Assembly (NCBI RefSeq): GCF_003386795.1
Contig: NZ_QTUC01000001.1
Coordinates: forward strand, 868,001-932,000
DNA from: Thermasporomyces composti
Lineage (GTDB): Bacteria; Actinomycetota; Actinomycetes; Propionibacteriales; Actinopolymorphaceae
Length of the DNA stretch: 64,000 nt
Direction: 5' to 3'
Position numbers and translations under genes: made by a program
In this document: positions 51,247-63,385 of the stretch, one piece after another
Layout of the letters: each line of letters starts with the position of its first letter
Position numbering within the stretch: position 1 is the stretch's first letter
The notes under the pieces: generated by a model
The model's input: only the letters and a program-made list of their open reading frames with translations
The model's database searches: none
Told to the model about the DNA's origin: nothing

Positions 51247-54200
51247 CTACCTCACCGCGTAGGCGCGGATGATGGTCTGCTCGACCTTGTTGCCCCTGGT
51301 GTCGCTGGCCTTCGCGCGCAGCGAGACGTAGGACGCGTCGCGGTCCTTGACGACGGCCACCGCCGCAACCCAGCGGTCCTTGCCGACGCGAACCGCCCGC
51401 ACGGGACGCCAGGAGCGGCCGTCGTCGGTCGACACCGACACCGACAGGCGGCGGATCACGCCGACCTTCGCGCCGTCCTGCGCCTGCAGCTTGATCGGCA
51501 CCACCGTGGCTCGCTTGCCGCGGTTGGTCTGGTCGACCTTCGGGTCGAACCGCACCGCCCACAGCGGCAACGGTGTGGGCTCCTCGACGTGCTTCGACCG
51601 GAACGTCCACGTGGTCTCGACCTCGGTCGAGAACAACGAGTACGACGGCCTGGTCGCGCTGACCTTGAGTTGGTACGTCGACTCCTCGACCGGGACCGTG
51701 ACGGTGTCGAGGTACCCGGGGTACTCGGTCTCCGCCACCTTCCTCCCGTCGCGGTACAGCGTCGTCCGCGCGGTATCGGTGAGCGATTCGCCGGCATGCC
51801 CACTCCCGTCGCCATACATCGGGATGCCGACGGAGATGGCGTCACCGTCGCGTTCAACGAAGGAAGCCGACCCCGTCACCGGAGCGAACACCGCGTCGTT
51901 CCACTGCTCGACGTAGCGGTGCCCCTTGCGGTATTGGCGGTCCTCAGACCACAGGGTCGTCTGGGGAACCGGCCAGCCCTCCTCGTCACGGACGAACTCC
52001 TCGACGTCGAAACTCCACGTCACCGACGCGGGCTCGAGATAGCTCGTCACCGTGTGGGGGAGATCCATGACGAGGCCGGGAATGATCCCGCCACTCATCG
52101 ATTCAGCGACACCGAAGGCGAAGCGCATCGCCTGCCGGTCCGGCAGCTGGCGAGCGATGCGGGTGCGCACCGTGGCCAGGTCACGGTCGCGGACCGTCCG
52201 GTCGAAGCCGGTGTAGTACCGACCGTCCTGGGTGTCCACCAGTCCATACAGGTAGGGCGAGTTGGCGAAGTCGCCCTCCGGCCCTGGCACCGCCCACTGG
52301 CTGGTGACGTGGGCGGAGAACATCTCGCCCGACGCCGCAGGTCCCAGGTGAGCGGTGTACAGGCCGTCGAACGTGTCGCTTCCGAGTGTCGAACTCCCCT
52401 GGATGTGGTCGGTGCGCACGTCGTAGCCGACGGTCACCATCGCCGGACGCACCGACGGGCGTTCGACGGTGGTCGACAAGGGCTTGCCGAGCCGAGAGTC
52501 CGCGATGATCGTCTGGTCGCGGTCGAGGGTGAGGACGGGCTGGACGAGCAGGGTCAGCTCCCTCTCGTCCTCGTCGAACACCATGGTGTCGACGAGGTAC
52601 CGACCGGCGGGCAGCCGGATCCGTGTCCTGCCGTCGACGACCTCGGTGAACTCCCACACCGACGCGTCGAGCCCCAGGATCATGCTGTCCGCGTCGTTCG
52701 TCGGCTGACCGCCGCGGTCCAGGTACTCGATGGTGAGGTCGTAGCTCTCGACCTCCTTGTTGACGCCGATCGGTGTGGCGACCGACACCCCCTCGGCGGT
52801 CGCCGTGAGCCGGCCACTGTAGAAGCCGTCCGGACCGTCGTGGGCGGTGTGGGAGGTGATGTCGACCGACGCGGAGCCGCCCGCCGGCACCGTGAGCGAG
52901 GTCTGGCTCAGCTCCACCGCCGACGCCGGCGCGGGCTCGCCGTCCGGCCCGGTGAGGGTCACCGCCAGCTCCAGCGTGACGTCGCTCGACCCGCTGTTGT
53001 GGTAGGTGACCGTCTTCGTCACCGGCTCGTCATCCTCGTGCGGCCACTCGGCCCGGCCGAACGACAGGCTCACCGGATCGGTCGTGACCGTCTGCGTCAA
53101 CGCCCGGGACACGTCGACCCGCCCGGCGCCCTGCTCGAGCACGGTCACGTCCGGGTGCGGGACGGCCGACGCGACGAGGACTCGCTTGAGCTGCTCCCCT
53201 GTCCATTCCGGGTGCTGCTGGGCGAGCAGCGCCGCGGCACCAGCGACGTGGGGCGCGGCCATGGAGGTCCCGTCAGCGGAGACGTAGTGGTCACCCACCG
53301 GTGGCCCCATCTCGGTGCCGGCCGCCCGAGCCGCCACGATCTCCACACCCGGCGCCGTGACGTCCGGCTTGATCGCCCCGTCGCCGACGCGTGGCCCGCG
53401 GCTGGAGAAGAAGGCGAGCTCGTCGGACTTGTCCACCGCACCAACGGTCAACGCCGCGTCCGCGCTTCCCGGCGACTCGACGCTCTCCTCCTCCGGACCG
53501 CTGTTGCCAGCGGAGATGACGAACAGCGCGCCCGTCTCCTCGCTCAGCCGGTTCACCGCCTCCTCGAGCGGGTCCACCTCCGGCGTGTCCGCGCCACCGA
53601 GGCTCAGGTTGAGGATGTCGGCCTGCTGCTCGACCGCCGCCCACTCCATGCCGGCCACGATCGCCGACTCGTCGCAGAAGCCGTCCCGGCCGCACACCTT
53701 CGCGTCCAGCAGGCTGGCCTCGGGCGCCACGCCGGTGTACGTCCCGTCGGATGCCGCACCCGTGCCGGCGATGGTGGAGGCCACGTGCGTGCCGTGCCCG
53801 AAGTCGTCACCGAGGCCTTCGCCGGTGAAGTCCTTCGCCGCCTTGACCTTGCCGTCCAGGTCAGGGTGCGTGGCGTCGATCCCTCCGTCGACCACCGCGA
53901 CGGTCACACCCTCACCTCGGTAGCCGGCGTCCCACGCCGCCGGCGCACCGATCTGCGGCACGCTCTGGTCGAGCGCCAACCGACGCTTCCCATCGAGCCA
54001 GACCTTCTCGATGCCCGCGGCGAACGTGCGAGCGACGCCGTTCCGTTCGACGACGAGGTCGTTCCAGAAACTGGTCGCCGAGTCCTTGGCTACCTCGAGC
54101 GCCGTGGCGTCGATGACCGGGAGCGACCTGAGGTCCGTGCCACCCGCCTCCGCCAGGTGACCGCGTCCGCGTGTCCGGGCGGTGTCGCTTCCGTACGCGA

Positions 54201-54720
54201 CGATGAGCGGGACGGCGCCCTGTCGCCGGTCGTCGTAACCCGCCTCGACCAGGCCGGTCACGTCGAACAGCCGACGGTCGAGCACGCCCTGACGGAGCAG
54301 CGGCAGCGCGTCGAGAGGGATGACGTACAGGTGCCCGTCGACGACGCGGGTGAGGAAGCGGGTGCCATGCCGGCCCGGGCCTGGGACGATCCCCGCTGAG
54401 GTGGCCGTCGCGGACGGCAGCACGACCCGGTCTCCGGTCAGGAGGGTGACCGACACCCGCGCTGGCGCCTGCCGAGACACGCTCTCCGACGTCGGGACGT
54501 CAGGCCCCCGCCCAGCGGAGACCTGTCCCACGGCGGGCGCCACCGGAGTCATGGCGACCGCCAGCCCAGCCAGGCCGGCGACCGCGGTGACGCACACACG
54601 CCGCCACCATCGGACAGCACTCGCCGAACGGCTGGCTACCCCCCGACGCTCAGCAGACGTCGGCCTCCGAACCGCTGGGAACTCGTTTCGACCCCGACCA
54701 CGCCGCGGTGGTGGACGCAT
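51247..54720 (-). CDS. secreted S8 family serine peptidase (subtilase), second copy
   Basis: A 1157-residue extracellular protease, a paralogue of the one at 2802-6296. A long basic N-terminus (37 residues) precedes the hydrophobic signal core (VCVTAVAGLAGLAVAMTPVAPAVG). A pro-region follows (LLTGDRVVLPSA, RQGVLDRRLFDVTGLVEAGYDD, shared with the first copy), then the catalytic domain with Asp near 278 (VVDGGID), His near 309 (GHGTHVAS), Asn in SAGNSG and Ser near 486 ([11 protein letters not shown]). The C-terminal about 600 residues look like beta-rich modules. Two extra Cys flank GRDG (VCGRDGFCD). The substrate is unknown. Confidence 0.93.
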   Translation of the reverse strand: MRPPPRRGRGRNEFPAVRRPTSAERRGVASRSASAVRWWRRVCVTAVAGLAGLAVAMTPVAPAVGQVSAGRGPDVPTSESVSRQAPARVSVTLLTGDRVVLPSATATSAGIVPGPGRHGTRFLTRVVDGHLYVIPLDALPLLRQGVLDRRLFDVTGLVEAGYDDRRQGAVPLIVAYGSDTARTRGRGHLAEAGGTDLRSLPVIDATALEVAKDSATSFWNDLVVERNGVARTFAAGIEKVWLDGKRRLALDQSVPQIGAPAAWDAGYRGEGVTVAVVDGGIDATHPDLDGKVKAAKDFTGEGLGDDFGHGTHVASTIAGTGAASDGTYTGVAPEASLLDAKVCGRDGFCDESAIVAGMEWAAVEQQADILNLSLGGADTPEVDPLEEAVNRLSEETGALFVISAGNSGPEEESVESPGSADAALTVGAVDKSDELAFFSSRGPRVGDGAIKPDVTAPGVEIVAARAAGTEMGPPVGDHYVSADGTSMAAPHVAGAAALLAQQHPEWTGEQLKRVLVASAVPHPDVTVLEQGAGRVDVSRALTQTVTTDPVSLSFGRAEWPHEDDEPVTKTVTYHNSGSSDVTLELAVTLTGPDGEPAPASAVELSQTSLTVPAGGSASVDITSHTAHDGPDGFYSGRLTATAEGVSVATPIGVNKEVESYDLTIEYLDRGGQPTNDADSMILGLDASVWEFTEVVDGRTRIRLPAGRYLVDTMVFDEDERELTLLVQPVLTLDRDQTIIADSRLGKPLSTTVERPSVRPAMVTVGYDVRTDHIQGSSTLGSDTFDGLYTAHLGPAASGEMFSAHVTSQWAVPGPEGDFANSPYLYGLVDTQDGRYYTGFDRTVRDRDLATVRTRIARQLPDRQAMRFAFGVAESMSGGIIPGLVMDLPHTVTSYLEPASVTWSFDVEEFVRDEEGWPVPQTTLWSEDRQYRKGHRYVEQWNDAVFAPVTGSASFVERDGDAISVGIPMYGDGSGHAGESLTDTARTTLYRDGRKVAETEYPGYLDTVTVPVEESTYQLKVSATRPSYSLFSTEVETTWTFRSKHVEEPTPLPLWAVRFDPKVDQTNRGKRATVVPIKLQAQDGAKVGVIRRLSVSVSTDDGRSWRPVRAVRVGKDRWVAAVAVVKDRDASYVSLRAKASDTRGNKVEQTIIRAYAVR

Positions 54721-54915: not shown

Positions 54916-56010
54916 TCAGCTACGCTCCCGGGCACGTCGGCGCACCTGGTCCAGGTAGACCGCGGCGATGAGCACGGCACCAACGGCGACGTTCTGCCAG
55001 TACGGGTTGACGCCGATGGTGACGAATCCGCTCTGCAGGACAGCGGGGATGAGGACGCCGACGACCGTGCCGGCCACCTTGCCGACCCCGCCGAACAGGC
55101 TCGTCCCCCCGAGGACGACGGCCGCGATGGCGGCGAGGTTGTCCGTGCTGTGACCGGAGATGGTCGTGGTACTGAAGTGCGCGAGCGACATCACCCCGGC
55201 GAGACCGGCGAGCGCCCCCATGAGCGCGTAGACCTTGACCAGGTGCCGGTCGACCCGGATCCCGACCCGTCGCGCGGCCTCGGGATTCGACCCGATCGCG
55301 TACGTGTACCGCCCGAATCGAGTGAACGCGAGGACCAGGCCGAGGACGAGGGCGACCACCCCGGCGATCACCACGAGCCACGGCACCACCCCGAAGGCCA
55401 GTCCGAAGCCGAGCGTGCTCACCAGGCGTCGTGGAACACCCCGGACGTCGGTCCCGCCGGTCACCAGGTACGAGGCGCCGAGGGCCATGCCCAGGGTGCC
55501 GAGCGTGGCGATGAGCGGCGGCACCTTGGCCTTGGCGACCAGGAGGCCATTGACCACGCCCCAGAGCAGGCCCGCGGCGAGACCGGCGAGGACGCCGACG
55601 ACGACCACACCCCACCCCGCCTCGGCGGCACCCGCGTCCGGGTTTGTGGGGTCGCTGCCGAGCGCGAGCATCGTCTTGGCAGCGACCACACCGGAGAAGA
55701 TGAGCACCGACCCGACCGAGAGGTCGATCCCCGCGGTCACGATGACGAACGTCATGCCAACGGCGAGGACGAGCAGAGCCGCGTTGTCGGCGGCGATGCT
55801 TCGGATGTTGACCGGGTTGGCGAAGTTCGGCTCGACCGCGGTGAAGAAGACGACCAGCGCGAGGAGCACGGCGAAGATCCATGCGACGTTGCTCGTCACG
55901 AGCCGAGCCGCGAGGTGACGCGACAGCGACCGCCGTGGGGCGTCGGCCGGTGCCGCTTCCGCGTGAGTCGACGCCGCGTGGGTCGACTTCTGGTTCGTGG
56001 TGTCAGTCAT
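54916..56010 (-). CDS. ribose-type ABC transporter permease
   Basis: A 364-residue RbsC/BPD_transp_2 family permease with about 8-10 membrane helices. The typical first helices (WIFAVLLALVVFFTAVEPNF, NIRSIAADNAALLVLAVGMTFVIVTAGIDLSVGS), the FTRFGRYTYAIGSNPEAARRVGI loop that contacts the ATPase, and GGTSLFGGVGKVAGTVVGVLI are all present. ATG 56010 overlaps the ATPase stop by 4 bases (ATGA) and has GGAGGG ahead. It is the last gene of the minus-strand operon. It imports an unknown sugar-like substrate. Confidence 0.93.
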   Translation of the reverse strand: MTDTTNQKSTHAASTHAEAAPADAPRRSLSRHLAARLVTSNVAWIFAVLLALVVFFTAVEPNFANPVNIRSIAADNAALLVLAVGMTFVIVTAGIDLSVGSVLIFSGVVAAKTMLALGSDPTNPDAGAAEAGWGVVVVGVLAGLAAGLLWGVVNGLLVAKAKVPPLIATLGTLGMALGASYLVTGGTDVRGVPRRLVSTLGFGLAFGVVPWLVVIAGVVALVLGLVLAFTRFGRYTYAIGSNPEAARRVGIRVDRHLVKVYALMGALAGLAGVMSLAHFSTTTISGHSTDNLAAIAAVVLGGTSLFGGVGKVAGTVVGVLIPAVLQSGFVTIGVNPYWQNVAVGAVLIAAVYLDQVRRRARERS

Positions 56011-56828
56011 GCCAGCCCTCCGGGCTCGCTCTCTTCTGACCGCCCGTCCGCTGACTCCCCCTCGACCGGAGGGCGCTCGGTTCGCAGGGCGCCCGTCATG
56101 GCGGCGACCAGGTCGTCGAGGGACGCCTCCCGCGCGGTGAACCGCGCGACCCGCTGACCGAGCCGGAGCACCTCCACTCGGTCGGCGACCGCGAGGACCT
56201 CGGGCATGTTGTGGCTGATCAGCACCACCGCGACGCCGCGGTCGCGTACCCGGCGGATCACGTCGAGGACCCGCTCGCGCTGGACGACGCCGAGCGCCGC
56301 CGTCGGCTCGTCCATGAAGACGACCTTCGACGCCCACGCCACCGCCCGGGCCACCGCGATGCTCTGCCGCTGCCCGCCCGAGAGGGAGGCGACGGGGGCG
56401 CTCGGGTCCGGCAGCTCGATGCCGAGGTCGCCGAACGCCTTGGTCGCCCGGCGTCGCATGTATCGCCGGTCGAGCACACCCAGACGGCCCAGCAGGCCGG
56501 GGCGCACGGGCTCACGACCGAGGAACAGGTTGGCGGCCGGGTCGAGGTCCGCGGCAAGGGCGAGGTCCTGGTAGACGACCTCGATGCCGAGGCGGCGCGC
56601 CTCCGCGGGGCTGTCGAGGCTCACCACCCGGCCGTCGAAGCGGATCACCCCCGCGTCGGGCCGCTCCGTCCCCGACAGGCACTTCACCAACGTGCTCTTG
56701 CCGGCTCCGTTGTCGCCGACCAGAGCAACGACCTCCCCTGGGTAGACGCTGAAGTCGGCGCCGCGCAGCGCCTGGACGTGGCCGTACGTCTTCACCAAGC
56801 CGATGGCCTGCAGCCGAGGCGTCGCCAT
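56007..56828 (-). CDS. ribose-type ABC transporter ATP-binding protein, single domain
   Basis: A 273-residue ATPase: Walker A GDNGAGKSTLVKCLSG, signature SLSGGQRQSIAVARAVA, Walker B KVVFMDEPTAALG and the switch His in VVLISHNMPEV. Unlike RbsA it has one nucleotide-binding domain (FrcA-like), so it should act as a homodimer. Its ATG is one base after the stop of the enoyl-CoA hydratase gene, which implies coupled translation of transport and metabolic genes. Confidence 0.93.
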   Translation of the reverse strand: MATPRLQAIGLVKTYGHVQALRGADFSVYPGEVVALVGDNGAGKSTLVKCLSGTERPDAGVIRFDGRVVSLDSPAEARRLGIEVVYQDLALAADLDPAANLFLGREPVRPGLLGRLGVLDRRYMRRRATKAFGDLGIELPDPSAPVASLSGGQRQSIAVARAVAWASKVVFMDEPTAALGVVQRERVLDVIRRVRDRGVAVVLISHNMPEVLAVADRVEVLRLGQRVARFTAREASLDDLVAAMTGALRTERPPVEGESADGRSEESEPGGLA

Positions 56829-56829
56829 C

Positions 56830-57618
56830 TCAGCGTCCCACGAACACCGGCTCGCGCTTCTCGATGAACGCGCGGATTCCCTCGCGAGCGTCCTCGCTCG
56901 CGTAGAGCGCGGACAGCACTCGTTGCTCCAGCGTCCACGCGGCGCCCAGTGGAGCCTCCACCCCATCGTCGACGAGTCGCTTCGCTTCTCGCACCGCGAG
57001 TGGCGCCCGTTCGGCGAGAGCGTGGGCGAGCTCCAACGCGGCGGGCAAGAGCTGGTCCGGGTCGACGACGCGGCTCACCAGTCCGCGCCGCTCGGCCTCG
57101 TCCGGGCGCATGGCGCGCCCGGTCATGACCAGCTCCTTCGTTGCCCGCACGCCGATCGCCCGGGCGAGTCGTTGGGTGCCCCCGCCGCCGGGGAGCAAGC
57201 CTAGCTTGACTTCCGGCAACGCGAACCGCGCCGCGGTCGAGGCCACGATGAGGTCGCACGCCAGCGCGACCTCGAAGCCGCCACCGAACGCGTAGCCGTT
57301 GACGGCCGCGATCGTCGGCTGCGGCAAAGCGGCGAGCTTGCCGAATGCCGCCCGACCCAGCCGCTGGTAGGCGTCGAAAGCCGCGTGGGAGACTCCGTCG
57401 TACTCGGAGATGTCGGCGCCGGCGATGAACCCGCGCCCAGTGCCGGTGACCACGAGGACCCGCACGTCGTCGTCGTGAGCCAGCTCGTCGAGATAGGTGA
57501 CGAGCGTCTCGAGCATGCTTCTGGACAACGCGCCGAGCTTGTCCTCGCGCCGTACACGCAGGACGGCGACAGCACCGTCCCTCTCCTCTGCGAGGTGCTC
57601 GTGCAGGTCTCGCGTCAC
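56830..57618 (-). CDS. enoyl-CoA hydratase/isomerase family protein
   Basis: A 262-residue crotonase-fold enzyme. The oxyanion segment is FIAGADISEYD, and both catalytic glutamates of hydratases are present: GGGFEVALACDLIVAS and PEVKLGLLPGGGGTQRLAR. So a hydratase reaction on a CoA ester is likely. GTG 57618 overlaps the stop of the CoA-transferase gene (GTGA), and its own stop adjoins the ABC ATPase start. It acts with the CoA-transferase in the same operon (inference). Confidence 0.9.
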   Translation of the reverse strand: MTRDLHEHLAEERDGAVAVLRVRREDKLGALSRSMLETLVTYLDELAHDDDVRVLVVTGTGRGFIAGADISEYDGVSHAAFDAYQRLGRAAFGKLAALPQPTIAAVNGYAFGGGFEVALACDLIVASTAARFALPEVKLGLLPGGGGTQRLARAIGVRATKELVMTGRAMRPDEAERRGLVSRVVDPDQLLPAALELAHALAERAPLAVREAKRLVDDGVEAPLGAAWTLEQRVLSALYASEDAREGIRAFIEKREPVFVGR

Positions 57619-58883
57619 GACTGCCCCCTTCCTCTCGCACCCGTTCCTCTCGCGCCCTGCTCGTCACGCCTCGCGCCTTCCCCGGCCCTTCCCCGTGCGG
57701 CCCCTGGCGCACTGGCCGCCTTTCCCAGCACCTTGGCGAGCCGGTCAGGGTCGAGCACCTCGGCCAGCACCTCCTCGGTGTGCTCGCCGACCAGCGGTGG
57801 CGGCTGACGCACGGTCCACGGCGTCTCCGTGAAGGTGATCGGGCATCCGACCAGCTCGAGTGTCCCGGCGCGCGGATGCTCGACCCGGCACAGCAGAGGC
57901 GACTCCTCCGCGCGCAGCTCGTCGACCGCATCCCGCAACGAGCGAACCTCCGCCGCCCAGAGCCCAGCTGGCAGCAGCAGGTCGAGCCAGTCCTTCGTCG
58001 TGCGCCGCGGTGTGATCCGCTCCAGTCGCTCCTTGATCTCGTCCCGGTCGATCCAAGGGTCCAGCTTCGACAGCGACGGCTCGTCGAAGACGCGGGCCAC
58101 GTCCGTCACGTCCGCCATGGCGAGCGCGAGCCACCCGTCCGCAGTGGGATAGATGCCGCACGGGGCTGACAGCCAGGGTGAGGCGATCCCGGCGCGGGAG
58201 CGTTCGAAGGTCTTGTGCTGGTTGACCATCGCCGAGATCTCCTGGCACTGCACCGCGATCGCGGTGGAGTACAGGTCGACCTGGACCCACTGGCCGATCC
58301 CTCGGCGTTCCCGCGCCAGGAGTGCCGCGAGGATCGCGACCGCGAGGGTGAGCGAGGTGCTGGCGTCGACGATCGAGGTGCCGGCGAACGTGGGTGGACC
58401 ATCAGCGCGACCAGTGTTGGCGGCGAGCCCGGACATCGCCTGGATCAGCAGGTCCTGACCCGGTCGGTTCTCCTTGGCGAACGTGCCTTCTTGGCCCCAT
58501 CCCGAGCCCGAGCAGTAGACGATGCGCGGGTTGACGGCACGGAAGTCCTCGTACCCCAGGCCCAGTCGGTCCATGACCCCGGGTCGGAAGTTCTCCACCA
58601 CGACGTCACAGGTGCGGCCCAGCTCGAGCAACGCGTCGCGGGCGTCCGGGTCTTTGAGGTTGAGCGCCACAGACCTCTTGTTACGGTTCATGGCGAGGAA
58701 CGCCGCGCTGTCGCCCGCGACCAGCTCGCCCATCATGGCCAGGCCGCGTTCCCACTCGCCGGTCTCCGGCCGCTCGACCTTGATGACGTCGGCGCCCATG
58801 TCGCCGAGCATCTGGGTGGCGAACGGACCGAGCATCATCTGGGTGAAGTCGAGGACCCTGATGCCGTCGAGAGCGCCGGGCAT
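57615..58883 (-). CDS. CaiB/BaiF family (family III) CoA-transferase
   Basis: A 422-residue enzyme that moves CoA between carboxylic acids. The N-terminal signature reads GIRVLDFTQMMLGPFATQML and GADVIKVERPETGE, the catalytic Asp lies in NRPGQDLLIQAMSGLAA, and RNKRSVALNLKDPDARDAL and CDVVVENFRPGVMDRLGLGYE are typical. The last about 30 residues are Ala/Arg/Gly-rich low complexity and may be non-essential. ATG 58883 has AAAGGA 8 bases ahead and follows a repetitive leader. The substrate acid is unknown. Confidence 0.92.
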   Translation of the reverse strand: MPGALDGIRVLDFTQMMLGPFATQMLGDMGADVIKVERPETGEWERGLAMMGELVAGDSAAFLAMNRNKRSVALNLKDPDARDALLELGRTCDVVVENFRPGVMDRLGLGYEDFRAVNPRIVYCSGSGWGQEGTFAKENRPGQDLLIQAMSGLAANTGRADGPPTFAGTSIVDASTSLTLAVAILAALLARERRGIGQWVQVDLYSTAIAVQCQEISAMVNQHKTFERSRAGIASPWLSAPCGIYPTADGWLALAMADVTDVARVFDEPSLSKLDPWIDRDEIKERLERITPRRTTKDWLDLLLPAGLWAAEVRSLRDAVDELRAEESPLLCRVEHPRAGTLELVGCPITFTETPWTVRQPPPLVGEHTEEVLAEVLDPDRLAKVLGKAASAPGAARGRAGEGARRDEQGARGTGARGRGQS

Positions 58884-58894
58884 CGTCGTCGTCC

Positions 58895-59040
58895 TTTCTC
58901 GGTGTTCGGTTCCCGGTGTTCGGTTGTGGTTCTTGGTTCTCGGTGCTCCGTTTCCTGTGTTCCGTTTCTCTGTGCCGTTTCTGTGTGCCGTTCCTGTGTG
59001 CCTTTTCTTGGGGGCTCCGTTCTCGGTGTCCGGTTCTTGG
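58895..59040 (-). repeat. degenerate 12-15-base tandem repeats in the leader of the CoA-transferase gene
   Basis: The plus strand repeats a unit like CGGTGTTCGGTTCC / CTGTGCCGTTTCTG about ten times with variation, leaving T and G rich on plus and A and C rich on the minus-strand mRNA. It fills the 190-base gap between the two genes, the only long gap in the operon. It would give an unstructured A-rich mRNA leader. Its base composition is unlike its neighbours. Confidence 0.75.
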
Positions 59041-59072
59041 GCTCACCGGTCGTCGCTGGTGCCGGGACGGCT

Positions 59073-60320
59073 TCAGCGGCCGTCCCTAGCCCTCCGGTGG
59101 TCGTCGAGGAGTCGGTCGAGAACGCGGACGATCTCGGCGGGTGCCGAGCCGGCCGAGAGCTCCTCGGCGAGGAGTCCGCTCGCCTCCTCCTGAAACGCCC
59201 GCCACCAGGGAGTGCGGGGACGGGTCCAGACGGCGTCCATCGTGGCCCTGGTATCGCGAAAGAACCCGCCCACCAGGGCGTCGGCCTCCGGATCCGACCA
59301 GGTGGCCGCGCTCGCCGGCTGTCCCTCGTTGGGGAGGACGACGTACCGCTGGGCGGTCGTCCCACTCACCCAGCTGGCGAACGCCGCCGCCTCGACGCGG
59401 TGGGCGCTCGTGGCCGAGACGCCGATACCAGCCCCGCCAAGGGTTGACCCGCGTGGGCCGGTGGCCTCGCCCGTGCCGACGGCGGACGCGTCGGCGCCGC
59501 GCGCGCCCGTCGTGGTGAGATGCCGCGCGCAGCCGCCGGGGGAAGACGCGGTGGGGATGCCCGTGGTAGGGATGTTGGTGAAGCGCACCGGGCGGCCGCT
59601 CGTGGACGGCCGCGAGTAGTTCGTGTAGCCGAACAGCAGCGGGACGTAGACGATCGCGTCGTCGCTCGTCATCCGGTCGAGCAGGGCTGGCGGATTCAAG
59701 CTGAACGACGAGCGGTCGACCACCTGCGCGAGCGTGGCGAGCAGTGCCACCGCGTCGCGATGGAAGCCGGACGCCTCGGCGTCCAGTGGGGTCCCGAGGC
59801 TGGCCGAGATGGTGAGCAGGCTGCAGAACGCGTCAGCCGGGTACAGCGGCAGGACCACCTTGCCCGGCAAGGCGCGCGCCAAGGCCACCACGTCGTCCCA
59901 CGTGGCCGGGACCTCGACCTCGTGGGCCGCCAGGAGATCGGGGCGGAACGCGGCGACCTGGCAGGCCGCGTCAACGGCGAGTCCCCACTGGTGACCCGCG
60001 TACTGGTAGCTGGCGTGGCTCCCACCGACCGTGTCCGCCGCATGGGCGTCGAGGACCTCGTCCGGCAGGAGGTCGTCCAGCGGAGCCAGGCATCCGGCGC
60101 GCGCGGCTGCCCCGACCATGGGGTGGTCGAAGACGATGAGGTCGTAGTCCGCGGCGAGCTCCTCGACCGCTTGGTCGTTGAACGCTGACAAGGGCCGGGC
60201 GTCCCACGCCACCTCGACACCGCGGACCGACCGCCACACAGCGGCCGCGGCAGCCATGGGTTTGACACAGCGGGCGTGGTCCCAGCAGATGCCGCGCAGA
60301 CGCACACGCTGATCAGGCAC
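59073..60320 (-). CDS. solute-binding-protein-like protein without export signal
   Basis: A 415-residue protein with features of family 1 extracellular solute-binding proteins (VRLRGICWDHARCVKPMAAA, DYDLIVFDHPMVGAAARAG, GHQWGLAVDAACQVAAFRPDLL, VPATWDDVVALARAL, ALPGKVVLPLYP). It has no signal peptide or lipobox, so it should stay in the cytoplasm. It lies inside a transport and CoA operon whose real lipoprotein binding protein is the next gene upstream (8-base overlap at 60313-60320). I recall similar signal-less proteins next to CaiB-type genes in other bacteria. The function is unknown: perhaps a cytosolic sensor or enzyme. Confidence 0.7.
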   Translation of the reverse strand: MPDQRVRLRGICWDHARCVKPMAAAAAVWRSVRGVEVAWDARPLSAFNDQAVEELAADYDLIVFDHPMVGAAARAGCLAPLDDLLPDEVLDAHAADTVGGSHASYQYAGHQWGLAVDAACQVAAFRPDLLAAHEVEVPATWDDVVALARALPGKVVLPLYPADAFCSLLTISASLGTPLDAEASGFHRDAVALLATLAQVVDRSSFSLNPPALLDRMTSDDAIVYVPLLFGYTNYSRPSTSGRPVRFTNIPTTGIPTASSPGGCARHLTTTGARGADASAVGTGEATGPRGSTLGGAGIGVSATSAHRVEAAAFASWVSGTTAQRYVVLPNEGQPASAATWSDPEADALVGGFFRDTRATMDAVWTRPRTPWWRAFQEEASGLLAEELSAGSAPAEIVRVLDRLLDDHRRARDGR

Positions 60321-61299
60321 CAGTGCACGACTCCCGGTAGAGGTACTTCTGGGTCTCCGGATCGTCGAGGTTGTCCTTCGTCGCCACGAACGACCCGGTG
60401 CGGATGAGCTTGGTGACCGGCTTGCCGGAGAGGGCGTTGACCGCTTGCTCCACGCCCTCGGCGCCGATGTCGAGCGGCTTCAGGACGACCTGGCCTTGCG
60501 CGGATCCGTCGCGCAGCGCCTGCACACCGCTGGGGTTGGCGTCGAAGCCGATGAGCTTGATCTCCCCGGATTTGTGGGCGTTCCGGATACCCGTCGCCGC
60601 GCCCTGCCCCGTCAAGGTGTTGGTGGCGAACACAGCAGCCAGGTTGGGATGGGCGGCCAGGGTCGATGTCACGACTGAGCTGGCCTTGGCCGCGTCGTCC
60701 CCGGCGAAGCGCTCGCCGACGTACTCGATGCCGGGCTCCTGGGCGAGGCGCTTCTCGAATCCGCGGACCCGAGCCGCCACCGTGGACACTCCTGGCTGGG
60801 TGTTGATCGTGACGACGGCGCCCGTGCCGCCGGTGAGTCTGATGACCTCCTCCGCCGCCTTCTCCCCGGCCAGTTCGTCATCCGAGGTCACCTGGGAGAC
60901 GGCGAAGGAGGGGTTCTTGACGGTGGTGTCGACCAAGACCACCGTGATGCCGTGCGCGGCCGCCTGCTCCAACGGCGCCTGCAAGGCGGTGTCGTCGACG
61001 GGTGCGATGAGGATCGCGTCCGGACGCGCGGCGATGACCGAGTTGAGGATCGGGATCTGCTCCGCCGCGTCCCACTTGTTGGGCCCCTGGACGTCGAGCT
61101 CGACCCCGAGCTTCTTCGCGGCCTGGCGGGCGCCGCAGGCCAACGATCCGTAGAAGTCGTCACCCTTCAAGCCGACGATCAGGCTGATCCGATAGCCGTC
61201 GCCGCCGGACCCTGTGTCCTCCGCACCGCAACCCGCCGCACTCGCCACGACGAGGCCCACGGAAAGGAATGCCAGGAAAGCTCTGCGCAGCGGATGCAA
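60313..61299 (-). CDS. ribose-type ABC transporter substrate-binding lipoprotein
   Basis: A 328-residue periplasmic-binding-type lipoprotein (Peripla_BP_4). The signal peptide is RRAFLAFLSVGLVVASAAGC, with lipobox ASAAGC and Cys near residue 24. The mature part reads YRISLIVGLKGDDFYGSLAC, NSVIAARPDAILIAPVDDTAL, NTLTGQGAATGIRNAHKSG and KLIGFDANPSGVQALRDG, typical of RbsB-like proteins. I chose TTG 61299 because GGAGG stands 5 bases ahead; ATG 61326, overlapping the SDR stop by ATGA, is the alternative. It captures the imported substrate and overlaps the signal-less homologue downstream. Confidence 0.9.
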   Translation of the reverse strand: MHPLRRAFLAFLSVGLVVASAAGCGAEDTGSGGDGYRISLIVGLKGDDFYGSLACGARQAAKKLGVELDVQGPNKWDAAEQIPILNSVIAARPDAILIAPVDDTALQAPLEQAAAHGITVVLVDTTVKNPSFAVSQVTSDDELAGEKAAEEVIRLTGGTGAVVTINTQPGVSTVAARVRGFEKRLAQEPGIEYVGERFAGDDAAKASSVVTSTLAAHPNLAAVFATNTLTGQGAATGIRNAHKSGEIKLIGFDANPSGVQALRDGSAQGQVVLKPLDIGAEGVEQAVNALSGKPVTKLIRTGSFVATKDNLDDPETQKYLYRESCTGA

Positions 61300-61322
61300 T
61301 TGCTCCTCCCTCCCCGCGGGTG

Positions 61323-62108
61323 TCATCGCGCGGCGGCGCGCGATCCGAGGACCGTGAGGCCACCATCGACGGGCACACACGCACCGGTGATGAAGGACGA
61401 GTCCTCCGACGCAAGGAAAGCCACGACGGCGGCCACTTCCTCGCACTGTCCGAAGCGTCCGAGGGCGTGCATGGCGTTCCAGCTCTCGATGAGAGCCGCC
61501 GGATCCGGAGCGGTGCGGAAGATCTCCTCGTTCATCGGGCTCATGATCGTCCCGGGCGCGATCGCGTTGACCCGGATGCGATCCGGTGCGTACTCGACCG
61601 CGGCTTGCTGAGTGAGGGAGATGATCGCGCCCTTCGTGGCCGCGTACGCCGCCCAACCGGGGAAGCCGCGAAGCGCCTGCGCGCTCGATGCGTTCACGAT
61701 CGACCCACCACCCGAGGCGCGCAGGTGCGGGATCGCGTACTTCATCGCGTACCAGATGCCTTTGAGATTGACGGCGAAGACCCGGTCCCAGTCCTCCTCC
61801 GGCATATCGGTGACGGATCCGCCGACGGCGATGCCGGCGATGTTGACGAGGACGTCGAGCCGCCCGTACCGGTCGGTGACCGCGCGCACCAGCGCAGCGA
61901 CGTCGTCCACGCGGCTCACGTCGGTCGGGACCGCCATCGCCTCACCGCCGTTGTCGATGATCTCGTGGAGCACCTTCTCCAGGCCGGTCACGTCGACGTC
62001 GGCGAGACCGACCGTGGCCCCTTCGGCGGCGAGGCGAAGAGCGCAGGCGCGACCGATGCCCTTGGCCGCACCCGTCACGATGCCGATCTTGCCGTCGAAC
62101 CTGCGCAT
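61323..62108 (-). CDS. SDR family dehydrogenase
   Basis: A 261-residue classical short-chain dehydrogenase/reductase. It has the nucleotide motif GAAKGIGRACALRLAAEGA, Asp40-like ADVDVTG (favouring NAD), the NIAG motif, the catalytic Ser (VNASSAQ) and Tyr-x3-Lys (YAATKGA), and a C-terminal GACVPVDGG. ATG 62108 has GGGAG 7 bases ahead. It is the first gene of the LacI-controlled operon and likely oxidises the imported polyol or sugar-like substrate (inference). Confidence 0.93.
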   Translation of the reverse strand: MRRFDGKIGIVTGAAKGIGRACALRLAAEGATVGLADVDVTGLEKVLHEIIDNGGEAMAVPTDVSRVDDVAALVRAVTDRYGRLDVLVNIAGIAVGGSVTDMPEEDWDRVFAVNLKGIWYAMKYAIPHLRASGGGSIVNASSAQALRGFPGWAAYAATKGAIISLTQQAAVEYAPDRIRVNAIAPGTIMSPMNEEIFRTAPDPAALIESWNAMHALGRFGQCEEVAAVVAFLASEDSSFITGACVPVDGGLTVLGSRAAAR

Positions 62109-62189: not shown

Positions 62190-62323
62190 ACTGCGACCGG
62201 TCCTCATTCTCGGCGCGTCGGGCTGCCAAAGTGTCCCGGACGGCGCGAACGTGGCCGCACCCGGTCGTCCGCCGAGCCGACCGGGTACTCGTTCCGCCGT
62301 CCGGACCGCTCGAAGGGAGGTCG

Positions 62324-63385
62324 ATGGCCACCATCACCGACGTGGCACGCCGTGCCGGGGTCTCACCCTCCGTCGTCTCGCGTCTGCTCAACAACGACCC
62401 GACGCTGCGGATTCGAGACGACACTCGTGCTCGTGTGCTCCGAGTGGTCGAAGAGCTCGACTACGCGCCACACCACGCCGCCCGGGCTCTGCGCCGCTCG
62501 CAGGTCGGCGCCCTCGGCCTCGCGGTGCCTGACATGCACAACCCCGTCTACGCGGCCATCCTGGAAGGCGCGCGACCGGCGGCGACCGAGCACGGGTACT
62601 TGCTCATGCTGACCAGCCTCGACGATCTGGCGTCCAACACCACCATGTCCCGTCGGATCGTCCGCGGCGGGGCGATCGACGGGCTCCTCGTGCAGCGAGA
62701 CAGCCCGACTGCAGCGCGAGTCGTCGATCGCATCACCGCCCGCCGCATGCCGGTCGTCGTGCTGAACGAGCGGGTACGCGCACCCATCGCGGGCGTTGCG
62801 GTGGACGACCGTGCCGCGGCGAGACTGGCCACGAGACACCTGCTCGAGTTGGGGCACACCGAGATCGCCCACCTGCGCGTCCGTGGCAACAACTCGCGCT
62901 CGCGGGACCGAGAGGCCGGGTGGCGAGACGCGCTGAAGGAAGCGGGCCTGACGCCTCGCGCTGAGCTGGTGGCCAACGGTGGCGCCGTTCCAGAGAGCGG
63001 CTTTCACGGCCTCCTCGAGCTGCTCCGACGACCACGCCCTCCGACCGCCGTCTTCGTGGGGAGTGTTCTCGCCGCCGTCGGCGCCCTCACCGCCGCTCGC
63101 CACGCGGGCCTCACCGTGCCCGACGACCTGTCGATCATCGGCTATCACGACACCTGGCTGGCCGAGCACGTCGACCCGCCCCTCACCGTCGTCCGCTTGC
63201 CGCTCGTCGACATGGGACGGGAAGCCGTCCGGCTCCTCGTCGACCTGATCAACGGCAGGCCCGCCCAGCAAGTGCTCCTCGACACTCCTACGCCCGAGCT
63301 GGTCGTCCGCGCGTCCACCGCGCCACCACGCAGAGCCAGGCGGGCGGGCGCGCGCCCGCGGCACAGGGAAAGGAAGCGCCCATGA
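62324..63385 (+). CDS. LacI family transcriptional regulator
   Basis: A 353-residue regulator. The N-terminal helix-turn-helix and hinge are clear: MATITDVARRAGVSPSVVSR, then YAPHHAARALRRSQVGALGL. The ligand domain (VGALGLAVPDMHNPVYAAIL, GLLVQRD, VAVDDRAAARLATRHLLELGH, IIGYHDTWLAEHVDPPLT) is a periplasmic-binding fold. ATG 62324 has GGGAGG ahead. It is divergent from the catabolic operon and overlaps the LysE-type gene by 4 bases (ATGA). It probably represses both until the substrate binds. Confidence 0.94.
   Translation: MATITDVARRAGVSPSVVSRLLNNDPTLRIRDDTRARVLRVVEELDYAPHHAARALRRSQVGALGLAVPDMHNPVYAAILEGARPAATEHGYLLMLTSLDDLASNTTMSRRIVRGGAIDGLLVQRDSPTAARVVDRITARRMPVVVLNERVRAPIAGVAVDDRAAARLATRHLLELGHTEIAHLRVRGNNSRSRDREAGWRDALKEAGLTPRAELVANGGAVPESGFHGLLELLRRPRPPTAVFVGSVLAAVGALTAARHAGLTVPDDLSIIGYHDTWLAEHVDPPLTVVRLPLVDMGREAVRLLVDLINGRPAQQVLLDTPTPELVVRASTAPPRRARRAGARPRHRERKRP

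Follow-up and report, generated by a model that had tools for sequence, protein, structure and literature searches.

Solute-binding proteins (SBPs) are known to have given rise to enzymes, MqnA and MqnD among them. Cyclohexadienyl dehydratase is a further case, reportedly derived from an arginine-binding protein (PMC7683729). Sugar-type SBPs are represented by SmoF, the trehalose/maltose-binding protein 1eu8, and LpqY. For LpqY (structure 7ape), the published account gives Asp80, Gly334, and Arg404 as trehalose contacts, describes Asn134 as essential, and places Asn25 and Glu26 in the β1–α1 loop (PMC7949145). The CaiB/BaiF (class III) catabolic operons, in turn, combine a CaiB-type CoA-transferase carrying a conserved Asp with an enoyl-CoA hydratase (ECH) or a MaoC hydratase. 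Searches of open-licence PMC papers, several with narrowly worded queries, turned up no account of a cytosolic SBP paired with CaiB or of a CaiB operon that includes one; the closest principle they offer is the evolution of enzymes from SBPs.

We describe here an SBP-fold gene, cSBP, in a CaiB-containing operon of Thermasporomyces composti. The window is the whole 64,000-nucleotide stretch of contig NZ_QTUC01000001.1 that was analysed. The gene is part of a compact seven-gene run, in the order SDR, CUT2 lipoprotein, cSBP, CaiB, enoyl-CoA hydratase, ABC ATPase, and permease. The features, in window coordinates, are as follows.

62231..63385, plus strand: LacI-type regulator, divergent, assigned from its grouping with the LacI-type ORF at locus L021 and inspection by eye
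61323..62108, minus strand: SDR-family dehydrogenase, gene 1 of the run
60313..61326, minus strand: CUT2-type sugar-binding lipoprotein (Peripla_BP_4), with a signal and the lipobox region ...VVASAAGC
59073..60320, minus strand: cSBP, a 415-aa signal-less SBP-fold protein, GTG start
58884..59072, minus strand: cSBP–CaiB spacer of 189 nt, including a short tandem repeat array (4.6 copies of a 13-bp unit, 58948-59008)
57615..58883, minus strand: CaiB/BaiF-type CoA-transferase (CoA_transf_3, 2.7e-107), 189 nt downstream of cSBP
56830..57618, minus strand: enoyl-CoA hydratase/isomerase (ECH_1), 4-nt overlap with the CaiB stop
56007..56828, minus strand: ABC transporter ATPase, member of the run
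54916..56010, minus strand: ABC permease, BPD_transp_2 (CUT2 class), member of the run

Neighbouring genes of the run touch or overlap by 4 to 8 nt, the exception being the 189-nt spacer. The longest ORF of the CUT2 lipoprotein gene extends to 61656; a start at its ATG at 61326 gives a 4-nt overlap with the stop of the SDR gene. Beyond the operon lies a large subtilase (Peptidase_S8) gene at 51247-54720 on the minus strand.

The N-terminus of cSBP is VPDQRVRLRGICWDHARCVK, and the motif LRGICWDHARC occupies residues 8–18. The motifs of family 1 SBPs that the sequence-only reading saw in this gene are borne out by Pfam, in which PF13416 (SBP_bac_8; E 2.7e-13, 50.8 bits against a cut-off of 27) and PF01547 (SBP_bac_1; E 7.1e-12, 46.4 bits against 26) both pass. 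Also as that reading had it, the gene overlaps by 8 nt that of a lipoprotein of a different family: the transporter of the operon is of the CUT2 type with its own Peripla_BP_4 lipoprotein, and the fold of cSBP is that of a CUT1-type SBP.

The relatives of cSBP form a family with a sharp boundary, since in a search of 23 genomes with alignment A2 (59 family sequences, excluding L080, whose ORF is cut off by the contig end) family members scored at least 378 bits and the SBPs next in rank no more than 50. Of 56 other related genomes, 11 contain a family match of at least 89 bits, against a ceiling of about 36 bits for the ordinary SBPs there. When the phylum is sampled evenly, the family is present in 2 of 395 other genomes. 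A scan of genome contigs with an N-terminal motif pattern yielded at least 587 confirmed relatives. The best 80 of these (L037–L116), which are the closer relatives and include many Rhizobiales, come from Actinomycetota, Pseudomonadota, Chloroflexota, Planctomycetota, Acidobacteriota, Bacteroidota, and ‘Candidatus Dormiibacterota’, together with one Nitrososphaerota MAG. Adding 16 loci found without the pattern (L021–L036), four plasmid records, and the window gives the 101 loci used below. This distribution is broad but patchy, as would suit an accessory catabolic trait. SBP families are the only Pfam domains in the 59 members scanned, SBP_bac_8 and SBP_bac_1 being matched at E 0.001 by 56 and 55 of them. 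Among NCBIfam models, none matches the window protein at E 0.001, and 19 of the 59 members have a weak MalE match. Judged by these searches, cSBP is a distinct, widespread family that no NCBIfam model names. A tandem pair of cSBP genes occurs in Bosea (L078; G464 C33 50201-52500), and an archaeal MAG (‘Candidatus Gagatemarchaeum’, L058) has a cSBP gene with CaiB not nearby, a case of transfer or a binning error.

The sequence-only reading held that cSBP lacks a signal peptide and lipobox, and this claim stands. No in-frame ATG, GTG, or TTG precedes the gene before a stop 54 codons away, and the sole near-start codon upstream is one CTG, immediately adjacent. Across the family, a hydrophobic signal core or lipobox was found in 0 of the 101 loci when every start up to 60 codons upstream of the motif was tried, a procedure adopted because choosing the nearest start misses some true starts a few residues further up. 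The reading frame is closed less than 15 codons ahead of the motif in 14/101 loci. As controls, 20 ordinary SBPs were chosen from the genomes of the same relatives, of which L144 and L146 were dropped because the SBP match was absent. All 18 readable controls have a lipobox; the control test covered the entire open frame as far as the match, and the family test used a slightly different region and rules. With queries for CUT1 only, a CUT1 permease was found within 3.5 kb at 6 of the 101 family loci versus 18/18 readable controls, and CaiB is near none of the 18. Against 26 SBP_bac_8 matches, the T. composti genome holds just two CaiB genes, one adjoining cSBP and the other far from every SBP match listed. 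Among the 12 T. composti SBPs examined, a lipobox was present in eight; none was detected in L155, L156, L159, and L164, where the wrong frame may have been read. We infer, with good support from these comparisons, that cSBP would reside in the cytosol.

The genes around cSBP point to CoA activation and hydration. Neighbours at the 101 loci were counted by tblastn; our home-made gene caller errs in high-GC loci. At 87/101 loci, and at none of the 18 readable controls, a CaiB gene lies no more than 2.6 kb away on the same strand. The remaining 14 comprise three with an AMP-binding CoA ligase (L027, L028, and L041, confirmed by Pfam in L027 and L041), six with CaiB farther away, and five in which neither was detected (L040, L045, L058, L088, and L102), L040 being near a contig end. 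In L021–L036, found without the pattern, CaiB is nearby in 14 of 16 and the ligase in the other two. A hydratase is present in 89 of the 101 loci, ECH in 22 and MaoC in 72. The absence of signals, taken with the nearness of CaiB, indicates a conserved trait and not a lost signal. Of the two properties that the sequence-only reading asked to have checked in homologues, the lack of a signal holds at every one of the 101 loci, and the CaiB neighbour at most of them.

CaiB precedes cSBP in 55 of 67 adjacent pairs and follows it in the other 12, and 33 of the pairs overlap by 4 nt. Long open frames upstream of cSBP at some loci suggested a natural CaiB–cSBP fusion; this was rejected, as another frame or an intervening stop separates the two genes in 67/67 pairs. 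Asp173 of the window CaiB, which we take from formyl-CoA transferase to be the catalytic residue, aligns with an Asp in all 68 partner CaiBs compared. An inactive CaiB partner was rejected on this count, and by sequence the partner would be a live transferase.

The wider clusters were read at the 56 loci flanked by 8 kb or more of sequence on either side. Here cSBP was called correctly in 48/56, so that the counts are lower bounds: IclR in at least 35 loci, LacI in at least 2, Amidohydro_2 in at least 29, Gfo/Idh/MocA in at least 28, MR_MLE in at least 21, the exported SBP cluster in at least 31, and an ABC ATPase in at least 38. A Sinorhizobium meliloti plasmid carries a set close to that of the window, with LacI, Gfo/Idh/MocA, aldose epimerase, SDR, CoA transferase, cSBP, ECH, and a CUT2 transporter. 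Other loci combine MaoC, CaiB, cSBP, amidohydrolase, IclR, a CUT1 transporter, a mandelate-racemase family enzyme, and rhamnose mutarotase, and a Streptomyces plasmid locus has an MFS transporter. Since the transporter class near cSBP varies among CUT1, CUT2, and MFS, with CoA activation, cSBP, and a hydratase as the recurring elements, the protein is not tied to one transporter. In composition, the clusters resemble those for the oxidation of sugars, and we infer, again with good support, that cSBP would belong to a pathway of sugar or sugar-acid catabolism. They share with the CaiB/BaiF operons a CaiB with the conserved Asp and an ECH or MaoC hydratase. In contrast to those operons, they add genes of sugar import and oxidation (Gfo/Idh/MocA, SDR, lactonases, MR_MLE, and mutarotase) and a member with the SBP fold.

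Trees of cSBP and of the partner CaiBs resolve the same broad groups: one like the window protein, one like those of Streptomyces and S. meliloti, which has ECH, and a large one with MaoC. Hydratase labels are clustered along the cSBP tree; the three labels require 8 changes, a number as low in 0/200 shuffles. The CaiB partners divide into no fewer than three distinct clades, with at least six changes forced by starred branches. That the CaiBs are not one clade and that the hydratase label clusters seems to tie cSBP function to the module of CoA activation plus hydration as such. What would be expected of a fixed subunit of one CaiB is not what was found, given several CaiB clades, a ligase in L027, L028, and L041, and 0/67 fusions; the multiple clades and the ligase replacement favour a shared metabolite over such a subunit. 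The clades of the two proteins may have diverged jointly, a history that would also be in keeping with a physical complex. Four loci from Bacteroidota and Cellvibrionaceae (L095, L096, L114, and L115) have two adjacent CaiB genes beside cSBP; the paired CaiBs form two sister groups, pointing to a transferase of two subunits.

AlphaFold2, given alignment A2, modelled cSBP with a pLDDT of 90.3 and a pTM of 0.89. The prediction is of a complete two-lobe, sugar-type SBP fold, in agreement with the binding-protein fold that the sequence-only reading proposed. The first predicted strand spans residues 7–13, indicating that the N-terminus is complete. The 50 PDB matches listed by Foldseek are sugar-type SBPs and MBP-derived constructs only. 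In the VIA-align comparison, where all 50 PDB matches listed have Z of at least 32.7, SmoF is the top match (Z 36.7, rmsd 2.6, 358 residues aligned), with MalE3 and alpha-glycoside-binding proteins no more than about 1 Z unit behind; the near-equal scores do not single out a ligand class. Identity to sugar SBPs in the structural alignments is 14–18 percent.

In the 59 sequences, 28 columns are invariant, including W13, H15, R17, R42, D65, H66, D117, and R367. In a sequence alignment with LpqY, for which the residues are those named in the published account, Asp80, Gly334, and Arg404 correspond to D65, G296, and R367, all three invariant in the 59 sequences, and the position of Asn134 is taken by an invariant Ala119. 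Retention of the three contacts together with the Asn134-to-Ala119 change suggests a sugar-type site that has been kept and altered. The W13/H15/R17 segment would fall in the β1–α1 loop only by extrapolation, some 5–9 residues past the start of the alignment. A sugar-type site with added basic residues would fit a sugar acid or its thioester. The whole fold and D65, G296, and R367 are thus common to cSBP and SmoF, LpqY, and 1eu8. In contrast to these, cSBP has no signal peptide or lipobox, has CaiB and not a permease next door, carries a W-x-H-x-R loop and an R-P-R motif, and shows Ala119 in place of Asn134 of LpqY.

We propose that cSBP, located in the cytosol, binds an acid derived from a sugar, or the CoA ester of that acid, and works, probably as an enzyme, with the steps of CoA activation and hydration, as follows. 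A sugar would be imported by the transporter of the cluster, and SDR or Gfo/Idh/MocA plus lactonase enzymes would oxidise it to an acid, which CaiB would convert to a CoA thioester. The two lobes of cSBP would close around the acid or thioester, in a site putatively lined by the W13/H15/R17 loop, R42, D65-H66, D117, R367, and R369. There, cSBP, an enzyme grown from a sugar-binding protein, could carry out, for example, a dehydration, an isomerisation, or a C–C cleavage, and ECH or MaoC would act on the product. The enzymatic role appears to be the least certain step, and the invariant polar residues would also fit pure binding. The principle shared with cyclohexadienyl dehydratase would be an SBP cleft turned active site; set against that enzyme and its arginine-binding ancestor, cSBP would differ in coming from the sugar-binding group and in being cytosolic. 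The explanation in full, a widespread family of cytosolic cSBPs acting as an SBP-derived enzyme on a sugar-acid intermediate, strikes us as evenly poised between right and wrong.

The alternatives differ in what they make of the same observations. A non-catalytic cytosolic carrier or chaperone could hand the sugar acid or CoA ester to CaiB and the hydratase, or shield a labile lactone or acyl-CoA. The SBP fold and the core sugar-contact residues are retained, and the translational overlap in 33/67 pairs, with adjacency conserved in either order, speaks for a physical partnership. However, CaiBs from at least three clades and the replacement by a ligase are awkward for one conserved docking surface, and no pair in 67 is a natural fusion; we regard the carrier as unlikely while giving it real weight. 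An intracellular sensor of a sugar-derived intermediate, with the LacI or IclR regulator as one possible recipient of its signal, would suit the regulator gene present in many clusters (at least 35/56 for IclR and 2/56 for LacI). Regulators of the LacI and IclR classes bind effectors themselves. The regulator varies (LacI, IclR, GntR) while CaiB and the hydratase stay, which makes a sensor less likely, and the 59 members scanned with Pfam have no output domain, so that we allow it a slim chance. These findings take ordinary transport off the list and link cSBP to CoA activation and hydration of a substrate derived from sugar; among the roles suggested by the sequence-only reading (sensor, chaperone, or new enzyme), they are compatible with an enzyme and with a substrate carrier alike.

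A further alternative, that cSBP is a conventional binding protein of an ABC transporter whose export signal has been lost, is mis-annotated, or is of an unconventional kind, can draw on the SBP fold, the Pfam SBP cut-offs passed, and the database name of its relatives, ‘extracellular solute-binding protein’. We give this reading very little credence. Signals or lipoboxes occur at none of the 101 homologous loci versus 18/18 readable controls, the frame is shut less than 15 codons before the motif in 14/101, the operon already has its own lipoprotein, and in some loci an MFS protein is the sole transporter nearby. The loss of a signal was rejected on the family count and on the absence of ATG, GTG, or TTG upstream; an upstream signal sequence and mostly exported homologues, either of which would make this an ordinary binding protein, were sought and neither appeared. 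Decay of the window copy within a functional family is a separate matter, and an improbable one. The window cSBP has the altered motif WDHARC, is 65 percent identical to its nearest relative, L021, and contains a 26-residue insert (residues 258–283, about 59472-59549) that is predicted to be disordered, with pLDDT below 50. The insert is lineage-specific, being missing from 16 aligned relatives, and its codons are unlike the rest of the gene (second-position GC of 0.82 versus 0.50 and 0.63). On the other hand, the frame is open, the rest of the fold is predicted at high confidence, the operon is compact, and the ‘RC’ form of the motif is common to L021, L037, L038, and L040.

Some clusters with cSBP, hereafter cSBP1, also contain a second signal-less SBP family, cSBP2, often alongside a second CaiB. 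Eight of 43 members of the ‘exported SBP’ cluster have no strong hydrophobic N-terminus, and four of the eight (L044, L062, L096, and L104) show a first strand of the LR(V/I/L)A(V/Y)R type. Pfam places the L044, L096, and L076 proteins in SBP_bac_1/8. The cSBP2 genes, with an LRVAVRxFGPFE-like strand, are as follows.

L044:3337-4512, minus strand: cSBP2
L062:13366-14556, minus strand: cSBP2
L096:3958-5202, plus strand: cSBP2
L104: cSBP2
L076:1988-3145, plus strand: cSBP2

A match of at least 245 bits to the L044 protein occurs in 6 of 23 genomes; the tblastn ‘cSBP2’ label also catches exported SBPs and was therefore left unused for cSBP2 counts. In L096, the order is cSBP1, CaiB, CaiB, cSBP2, Gfo/Idh/MocA.

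Returning to the proposal of an SBP-derived enzyme, it is tempting to go further and see in cSBP a new enzyme class, a cytosolic SBP-fold catalyst whose substrates would be CoA-activated sugar acids, within a hitherto undescribed CoA-thioester route of sugar degradation present in many phyla, with cSBP1, cSBP2, and two CaiBs acting jointly in some lineages. We offer this broader version tentatively and lean somewhat against it. The public name ‘extracellular solute-binding protein’ appears wrong as to place and is probably wrong as to function. That cSBP is paired with CoA activation in sugar clusters points to an unrecognised branch of CoA-dependent sugar-acid catabolism in soil- and plant-associated bacteria, and cSBP would provide a test case for the passage from a binding protein to an intracellular enzyme or carrier.
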